NCBI GenBank assembly: GCA_028277445.1
Contig: JANQGG010000011.1
Location: 1-58,174, forward strand
DNA: 58,174 nt
Source of the DNA: Chloroherpetonaceae bacterium
Lineage (GTDB): Bacteria; Bacteroidota; Chlorobiia; Chlorobiales; Chloroherpetonaceae
Direction: 5' to 3'
The position numbers and the translations under genes were made by a program. Below the pieces are notes generated by a model. That model was not told the DNA's origin and did not search any database. It saw nothing but the letters and a program-made list of their open reading frames with translations. Below are positions 2,166 through 4,767 of the stretch, one piece after another; position 1 is the stretch's first letter; every line of letters starts with the position of its first letter.

Positions 2166-2678
2166 TTAGCACAAATACTCGTTTGAGCTTAAATGAATCG
2201 AAATTTCATCGTTATTCCAATTGACTTTCAATCGGTGCAAGTGATGATCTTCTTTATTGCAGCTGTTAATATCGAATGCCCATTCCTGAGTTAATGCACA
2301 CCGCAAGTCTTCACATTCATTCGGCGAGGAATTGTTTTTGCAGATTGGGCATAACGAGGAAAATGCTTGATACTGTTTTTCAGATACCCTCAACACAATT
2401 AAATCCAAATCGGGGATCCATAAAAAGCCATCCTGAACCTGGAGTTCGGGAAAGCGTTTGAGATCAATAACGAGCGCATCATTATTCTTTTCAATTCCAT
2501 CTATCTCATTATCGGTGTGTGTTTTAGAAATATAAACGCTTCCGGATGTTAATCCTTTAAACACGACGGCCGAACATGTACGCCGCAGCAAATCCCTATC
2601 TTGAAATACCGGATTTTCTTTCTTTAGAATTAAAGTGTTGATAAAATTCGTCAATTGTATTTCAAGTGATTTTTCCAT
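2166..2678 (-). CDS. Rieske-fold-like protein lacking the cluster His ligands
   Basis: A 170-residue protein with no signal peptide or membrane segment. Residues about 68-165 match the Rieske ferredoxin layout: VIDLKRFPEL, then VLRVSEKQYQAFSSLC, a first Cys box, a second Cys box followed by FD, and a closing strand DEISIHL. A true Rieske domain has C-x-H and C-x-x-H to bind the 2Fe-2S cluster. Here the boxes read C110-P-I-C113 and C127-A-L-T130, so both His are missing; C122 and C140 are extra cysteines. It cannot bind a normal Rieske cluster and may be structural or hold another metal through Cys. Start is ATG at 2678; a TTG 9 nt upstream is possible. The family call is from pattern only. 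Confidence 0.6.
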   Translation of the reverse strand: MEKSLEIQLTNFINTLILKKENPVFQDRDLLRRTCSAVVFKGLTSGSVYISKTHTDNEIDGIEKNNDALVIDLKRFPELQVQDGFLWIPDLDLIVLRVSEKQYQAFSSLCPICKNNSSPNECEDLRCALTQEWAFDINSCNKEDHHLHRLKVNWNNDEISIHLSSNEYLC

Positions 2679-3003: not shown

Positions 3004-4767
3004 CTATGATGACGTGCGAATATCGGTGATAACCAAACTGAAGCAATTACCAAACTCTTGACGAAGGCATTCTTTCAGCCTTAACTTTAAATCGTTTTGA
3101 TCAACCAATTGGCGTTTAACTTTAGCTGTAATGCAGATATTCTTATTATGAACTTCAGTGTAATTGCATAGCCAAACCTTTACTTCTTTTAAAACAGGTA
3201 TATGCATAAGGTAGTCTTCAATATCATCCAACGAAATCCAATGGCCGCCAAAAAATAACGAATTCTTAAAACGGTCTTTCACTGTGATGTAGCCATCCTG
3301 GTCTTTTACGGCAATAATATCGATAGCTCCCTTAGGAATTTGTTGGTGAGACTTTTTAATCCCACATATGGTTTGATTCATGGAAGGTATCGGATAACTC
3401 AGCGATAAATAGCCTTGCTGGTTGTGGCTCAGCTCCTGATTATGCTGATTTAAGATTTGAACCTGGACGCCCGGATAAGGTTTGCCGGTCCGCTCCGGTT
3501 TTTTATCCAGGGATAGCACTGTTCCGATTAGCGGCGCGCCCAGCTCAGCATTAAACCACGTATCTATAATCGCACCGTTATTTCCTGCCAGGTTCTCTTT
3601 GATCCATTGATACAAATCATGATTAATATAATCACTCAGCACGCTAACCAATCTTAATGTGGAATAATCAAACCTGGAGGCTGCATCGGTATCCAACGCT
3701 TTTAATTCGTAAAGGAATTCAGGGGATGTCGCCAGAATATTGATGCCGTGTTTATCAACGGCGCGCCATACGGCATCGGGATTAGGAAACGCCAACGACC
3801 CTTCTCTAAAATAAACGGTAGCGCCATTCAATAATGTCCCATAAACCGAATTGGTATGTCCTTCGATAACGCTTAAATCCGACGTACACCAGCAAATATC
3901 GGATTCCTTTAAATCGTTAATGATTTTCGTGTAATACCCTGCACCAACCATATATCCGCCATGCGTATGAACGAACCCATCCATTGGAGCATTTGGCTTC
4001 GATGTAAAGATCATAAACAACGGATCGTTTGAATGCATAATTTCCGGATTGATCCATTTTGGTTCAACATTCATAAAATCATGGAAGTCGAATTCCATTT
4101 TTGAGCGCAGTTCGGATTTTGGGTCCTGGCGTCTTAAGACAATTTTGGGGCAATCATAATTCACCTCGCATAACGCCTTATCCAACACTTGTTTCAGATT
4201 GATGCTTTTTCCATTGGAAAACATAATATCGGCAAGGAAAATGCATCTTGGTCTGACATTTTGAACATAATCCCGAATGTACTTACTACCTAAACCGGTA
4301 TGCAGCATCACATGAATAGCGCCGATCCTTGCACATGCCAACATGGCATAAATGGTTTCAACCGTGTTTGGCATATATATTAATACCGTATCGCCTTTAT
4401 TGACACCCAGGTTTTTTAAGGCATTGGCAACCTGGCAAACCCGTTTTTGCAACCGATCGTAGGTTACGGTAACTTCGCGGCCATTTTCAGTCGACCAGAA
4501 CAAGGCAACTTTATTTCGTCTAGCGCCAACCACATGCCGATCCAATGCATTAATGGTTATGTTTAATTTTCCGCCAAGAAACCATCCTTGTTCGGGGCGC
4601 TCATCGTCAAATACCGACGACCATGTCTTTTCCCAAAGAAACGTTCGGGCGATGCTGTCCCAAAAAGACATTGGCGTTGTCACCGATTCCTGGTAGGCTT
4701 TGTTGTAATGGGGAAAAACAGAAGACTCCTTAAGATATATGGGCGGCTTAATATAGTCCATGGTCAT
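3004..4767 (-). CDS. Acetyl-CoA synthetase-like protein with degenerate active site
   Basis: A 587-residue member of the AMP-forming acyl-CoA synthetase family, nearest to acetyl-/acetoacetyl-CoA synthetases by its middle region (ICWCTSDLSVIEGHTNSVYG, then NGATVYFREGS). Core motifs are damaged. The A3 phosphate loop, normally TSGSTGxPKG, reads TSKPNAPMDG (residues 255-264) but keeps the following VHTHGGY. A5 reads DTWFNAELG where Acs has DTWWQTETG. The Y-x-T-G-D motif before DGYI is absent, and the C-terminus ends without the PKTxSGK catalytic Lys. The rest is colinear and full length apart from the short tail. I infer loss of adenylation activity; a binding or regulatory role is possible. 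Two in-frame ATGs (4767, 4761) open the gene; a hairpin abuts the first. Confidence 0.75.
   Translation of the reverse strand: MTMDYIKPPIYLKESSVFPHYNKAYQESVTTPMSFWDSIARTFLWEKTWSSVFDDERPEQGWFLGGKLNITINALDRHVVGARRNKVALFWSTENGREVTVTYDRLQKRVCQVANALKNLGVNKGDTVLIYMPNTVETIYAMLACARIGAIHVMLHTGLGSKYIRDYVQNVRPRCIFLADIMFSNGKSINLKQVLDKALCEVNYDCPKIVLRRQDPKSELRSKMEFDFHDFMNVEPKWINPEIMHSNDPLFMIFTSKPNAPMDGFVHTHGGYMVGAGYYTKIINDLKESDICWCTSDLSVIEGHTNSVYGTLLNGATVYFREGSLAFPNPDAVWRAVDKHGINILATSPEFLYELKALDTDAASRFDYSTLRLVSVLSDYINHDLYQWIKENLAGNNGAIIDTWFNAELGAPLIGTVLSLDKKPERTGKPYPGVQVQILNQHNQELSHNQQGYLSLSYPIPSMNQTICGIKKSHQQIPKGAIDIIAVKDQDGYITVKDRFKNSLFFGGHWISLDDIEDYLMHIPVLKEVKVWLCNYTEVHNKNICITAKVKRQLVDQNDLKLRLKECLRQEFGNCFSLVITDIRTSS

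Follow-up and report, generated by a model that had tools for sequence, protein, structure and literature searches.

What is left of a Rieske protein when both histidines that hold its cluster have gone? The question is raised by a gene of the window, that is, the whole 58,174-nucleotide stretch of Chloroherpetonaceae DNA that was analysed. The gene starts with an ATG at 2678, ends with a stop codon at 2168-2166 on the minus strand, and is present as one copy in its genome. Since the FMO antenna protein (PF02327) and PscD are also encoded there, the genome belongs to the green phototrophs. The gene is not PscD itself: it gives no match to PF10657, and the PscD of the genome is found at G000:C48:122312-122674. 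In an earlier, sequence-only reading the open reading frame, the motifs FSSLC-P-I-C and RCALTQEWAFD, and cysteines 110, 113, 122 and 127 were described, all of which are correct on the translation. The protein has seven cysteines (C35, C110, C113, C122, C127, C140 and C170). The gene and its parts are as follows.

2166..2678, minus strand: whole gene, 170 amino acids (P0001), Rieske-derived, without cluster histidines (open reading frame and translation)
2181..2498, minus strand: Rieske-derived beta domain, residues 61-166 (profile alignments and predicted strands)
2235..2252, minus strand: Pro-loop position, residues 143-148, E-D-H-H-L-H for the usual G-P-A (alignment)
2289..2300, minus strand: box 2, residues 127-130, C-A-L-T for C-x-x-H; C-P-S-S in the orthologue (alignment)
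2340..2351, minus strand: box 1, residues 110-113, C-P-I-C for C-x-H; C-V-N-W in the orthologue (alignment)
2523..2609, minus strand: probable remnant of a Tat lipoprotein signal, residues 24-52, with the twin arginine and the lipobox cysteine lost (hhalign, alignments and hydropathy)

In an intact Rieske protein one iron of the cluster has the two box cysteines as ligands and the other the two histidines, and the Pro loop packs against the cluster. The last 100 residues or so of the window protein keep to the order of a Rieske domain. An alignment with 15 intact Rieske proteins puts C110 and C127 in register with the two invariant cluster cysteines, and the columns of the box histidines are occupied by I112 and T130/Q131. 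The spacing from the box 2 cysteine to the conserved phenylalanine is one residue longer than in the canonical C-x-x-H-G-x-x-F. The loss of both histidines, as first proposed from the window protein (C-P-I and C-A-L-T), is borne out by its orthologue, which has C-V-N and C-P-S-S instead. Without these histidines a normal Rieske cluster is impossible.

How widespread is this protein? A search of 101 genomes from the order and beyond identified one convincing orthologue, in genome G001 (L002:1492-2010, 173 amino acids, 40% identity over the full length, E 7e-31), with its start at the aligned methionine. G001 is the only other genome of this bacterial family among those searched. Low-scoring matches in Chlorobium-type genomes proved to be unrelated or wrong-frame ORFs, and two further contig scans for the window protein, which possibly did not cover the nearest records, found nothing. 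Three blocks (RTCSAVVF, DGFLWI and EWAFDI) are conserved in both orthologues.

Is the protein then really descended from a Rieske protein? Taken alone, neither orthologue matches any family in Pfam or NCBIfam, and the window protein has no credible sequence match in the PDB; the lone phmmer match, 3eyt with E 0.047, is at the level of chance. The profile of the two orthologues likewise found nothing in the PDB. The same profile was run on 395 genomes of the phylum with a threshold of E<0.001, where its non-self matches were Rieske proteins only, the best with E 2.4e-13. Fifteen of these have intact C-x-H and C-x-x-H boxes, an N-terminal Tat-type lipoprotein signal and a PF00355 match each; the remaining one is a weaker paralogue in the window genome, P0002 (PF00355, 23 bits). 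With the combined profile, only Rieske-domain proteins were among the 60 PDB matches listed. The hhalign comparison with the 15 intact Rieske proteins gave a probability of 99.0, E 8.3e-18 and a score of 106.7 over residues 24-164, whereas the best of 200 column shuffles reached 22.9 and the reversed profile 9.2. Note that the comparison with shuffles is not fully independent, since this profile also gathered the 15 proteins; that every protein it gathered was a Rieske protein is independent. In a tree of 21 sequences the two orthologues come together as a single long-branched clade, which groups weakly with the Tat Rieskes (86/86); the long branches measure 1.69 and 1.19 changes per column. 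A grouping with the half-lost paralogue family of P0002 was rejected on this tree. Homology with Rieske proteins, as judged from these alignments, is well supported.

The predicted structure adds less. With the two sequences alone AlphaFold gave a poor model (pLDDT 51), and its Foldseek matches are meaningless. With 21 sequences, an input that included intact relatives and may be biased by them, the model reached pLDDT 68 and pTM 0.56. Its strands at residues 61-110 and 151-160 have mean block pLDDT of 84-96, and residues 111-127, where the boxes lie, and 139-143 are below 50. Foldseek found nothing at E<0.001 for this model; Rieske proteins make up about 37 of its top 50 PDB chains, each of them a weak match (best 3d89, E 0.34, probability 0.28). 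We infer the Rieske fold from homology, not from a confident structure-library match. The Rieske-like domain of the sequence-only reading stands as to its Rieske derivation, by profile search and hhalign, and as to its loss of histidines in both members.

The homology reaches beyond the domain into a former export signal. The stretch LLRRTCSAVVFKGLTSGS of the window protein aligns with FLKDSCSVLVAFGLAAYG of the intact relatives. Its hydropathy is 0.72, compared with 1.04-1.97 in the intact relatives and 1.16 in the orthologue; a lysine interrupts the former hydrophobic stretch, and neither a Tat motif nor a lipobox is present in the window protein. In both orthologues the twin-arginine or R-K motif, the lipobox cysteine, the Pro loop and the box histidines are all degraded. 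As the stretch of the orthologue is still moderately hydrophobic, the orthologue might conceivably be exported. Ahead of the former signal stretch lie about 25 residues that include a predicted helix.

These observations suggest a history as follows. The ancestor would have been an exported Tat lipoprotein of the Rieske type. Its export signal would have decayed, leaving the protein in the cytoplasm; it would have lost both cluster histidines and the Pro loop, kept the beta scaffold with its two cluster cysteines, and gained about 25 residues at the N terminus. The [2Fe-2S] cluster is most likely absent. C110 and C127, which are adjacent on one iron in intact Rieske proteins, would be free to form a disulfide, either stabilising or acting as a redox switch, and the rest of the domain probably serves as a protein-binding scaffold, as in PSB33/TEF5. 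The two cysteines would be adjacent in a Rieske-like fold and both species keep them, which makes a disulfide their most economical use. The box region is modelled with pLDDT below 50 (residues 111-127), and no geometry backs a C110-C127 disulfide; with two members at 40% identity, the retention of both cysteines could also be due to chance. For the whole reading, a cytoplasmic, cluster-free descendant of an exported Rieske protein that acts as a protein-binding scaffold with a C110-C127 disulfide, we estimate a probability of about one half.

Might the metal site have been rebuilt instead of lost? The former Pro loop reads E-x-H-(x)-H-L in both orthologues and G-P-A in intact relatives; E143, H145, H146 and L147 are common to the window protein and the orthologue (E-E-H-A-H-L). 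C110 and C127 together with H145 and H146 could then make a Cys2His2 site for an Fe-S cluster, zinc or iron. However, this pattern is drawn from a pair of sequences in which an indel separates the two histidines, the loop is modelled at low confidence (139-143 below 50), and we know of no precedent for a rebuilt Cys2His2 Rieske site. We regard such a site as unlikely, and slightly more so the fuller proposal of a cytoplasmic metal or Fe-S site in a phototroph, in which the original cysteines and Pro-loop histidines would take a new ligand geometry.

Another explanation is that the gene is decaying and functionless, and that the histidines were lost as nothing maintains the site. The long branches of the pair would fit, as would the neighbourhood, which is not conserved and in which the two adjoining genes also have no catalytic motifs. 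The window gene is separated by 7 bp from a convergent adenylate-kinase-like gene and by 325 bp from a same-strand acetyl-CoA-synthetase-like gene, while the orthologue has a 5'-nucleotidase-like gene on one side and a NiFe-hydrogenase operon on the other. No neighbour is common to the two loci, so the context points to no function, and membership in a conserved operon was rejected. No terminator-like site was found around the window gene, and promoter-like sites were near chance only. Against decay, the frames are open at full length in two genera and keep the three conserved blocks, and the substitutions are weighted to third positions: the two genes differ at 82, 67 and 123 sites at codon positions 1, 2 and 3, respectively (272 in total), which argues against a pseudogene. 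The corresponding pS is 0.89 and pN 0.44, where pS is saturated and gives no rate. A decaying gene is improbable.

The four cysteines 110, 113, 122 and 127 were first proposed as possible ligands of another metal or an all-cysteine cluster, with their conservation in orthologues as the test. All four are present in the window protein. However, the orthologue, which shares the histidine loss, has three cysteines in all, in the columns of C35, C110 and C127; C113, C122, C140 and C170 are not conserved, with a tryptophan in the C113 column and a residue other than cysteine in that of C122. The conservation expected of the four is seen for C110 and C127 and fails for C113 and C122, so the two proteins do not have a four-cysteine site in common. 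This proposal is largely refuted and very improbable, and would survive only as a species-specific gain. That the Rieske likeness is superficial and the fold something else is the least probable explanation, highly doubtful despite the absence of Pfam or NCBIfam matches for single orthologues and of significant Foldseek matches, given profile and profile-profile scores far above shuffles, cysteines and strands in register, and the many Rieske chains, weak as each is, among the top Foldseek matches.

The two adjoining genes deserve a description of their own. At 1361-2158 on the plus strand, the adenylate-kinase-like protein (PF00406, 28 bits) has EGMTRSGRYNQA in place of the Walker A motif GxPGxGKGTQ. 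It is 50-66% conserved in relatives, whose loop is degenerate in the same way where it was read, and a search of Chlorobium-type (f4) genomes did not find it; by prediction it is a conserved pseudo-adenylate-kinase. At 3004-4767 on the minus strand, the acetyl-CoA-synthetase-like protein has its AMP-binding loop changed from TSGTTGKPKG to TSKPNAPMDG, and the C-terminal PKTRSGK is missing. A 50% relative in G001 (L121) is degenerate too, and intact paralogues are present in both genomes. Going by their motifs, both genes look like pseudoenzymes. With both neighbours degenerate, three adjacent genes of the window are degenerate paralogues of redox or metabolic proteins.

How does the cluster-free Rieske descendant proposed here compare with known proteins? 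Its nearest homologues, over residues 24-164, are the Tat-exported Rieske lipoproteins of the same phylum (PF00355; genomes G124, G108, G196, G232, G144 and others). They share with it the cluster cysteines in register, the strand order and the aligned signal region, but keep both histidines, mostly the G-P-A loop, the twin-arginine or R-K motif and the lipobox, none of which the window protein has. In the two genomes read, the genes of the closest intact ones (L082 and L084) have a Reeler-domain protein on one side and a small predicted membrane protein on the other, after which comes a YceI-like protein; this gene group is possibly a periplasmic electron-transfer unit.

Rieske-like domains poor in ligands have been published, so the first description of the protein as an undescribed variant was too strong as regards its kind. 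PSB33/TEF5/LIL8 of the green plant lineage has a Rieske-like domain without Fe-S-binding residues and is reported to act in the assembly or stability of photosystem II (PMC12164590); in this domain the second-box cysteine alone remains (PMC8003979). In the Rieske-type NirD of Bacillus bataviensis one cysteine and one histidine ligand are substituted (PMC3475470). PSB33 is set apart, by its description, by C-terminal transmembrane helices, whereas the window protein ends a few residues past the last strand with the polar tail SSNEYLC, leaving no room for a transmembrane helix, and keeps both cysteines. NirD/NasG, the nitrite reductase small subunit, is also a small soluble Rieske-type protein but is paired with NirB, and there is no nirB beside the window gene or its orthologue. 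What appears new is the family itself, found in none of the libraries searched, and the keeping of both cysteines with the loss of both histidines.

A further relative is the paralogue family C-T-H ... C-C-S-V-G of P0002 (G000:C58), whose profile similarity to the orthologue pair has E 4e-8. Like the window protein, it has no box 2 histidine and has the same box 2 spacing, but it keeps the box 1 C-x-H and scores above the PF00355 cut-off (23 bits). Its loci are as follows.

G000:C58:132206-132616 (L061:6210-6620, plus strand): P0002
L062:5945-6361, minus strand: member in G001
L071, L072 and L073: further members
L078:3983-4399, plus strand: member on a Sulfurospirillum plasmid

The other hosts are Chlorobiales and another member of the phylum. 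The match of the family to PF00355 is weak. In all six sequences seen box 1 is an intact C-x-H and box 2 is C-C-S-[VIL] without histidine; one histidine and three cysteines are conserved in the five aligned, which could indicate 3Cys:1His ligation. A separate Rieske-like protein at G148:C98:44884-45216 (L077:1495-1959, minus strand) has CTH intact and a box 2, CSSMGRAKYD, without the second histidine.

The window protein would be a clear bacterial case in which an exported electron-transfer domain outlived its cluster ligands and export signal, and it can be compared with intact relatives. Reuse of the Rieske scaffold would then be shown beyond the plant PSB33 group. Together with the one-histidine paralogue, it would give a natural series of two, one and no histidines, in which what the Rieske fold needs to hold a cluster may be read.
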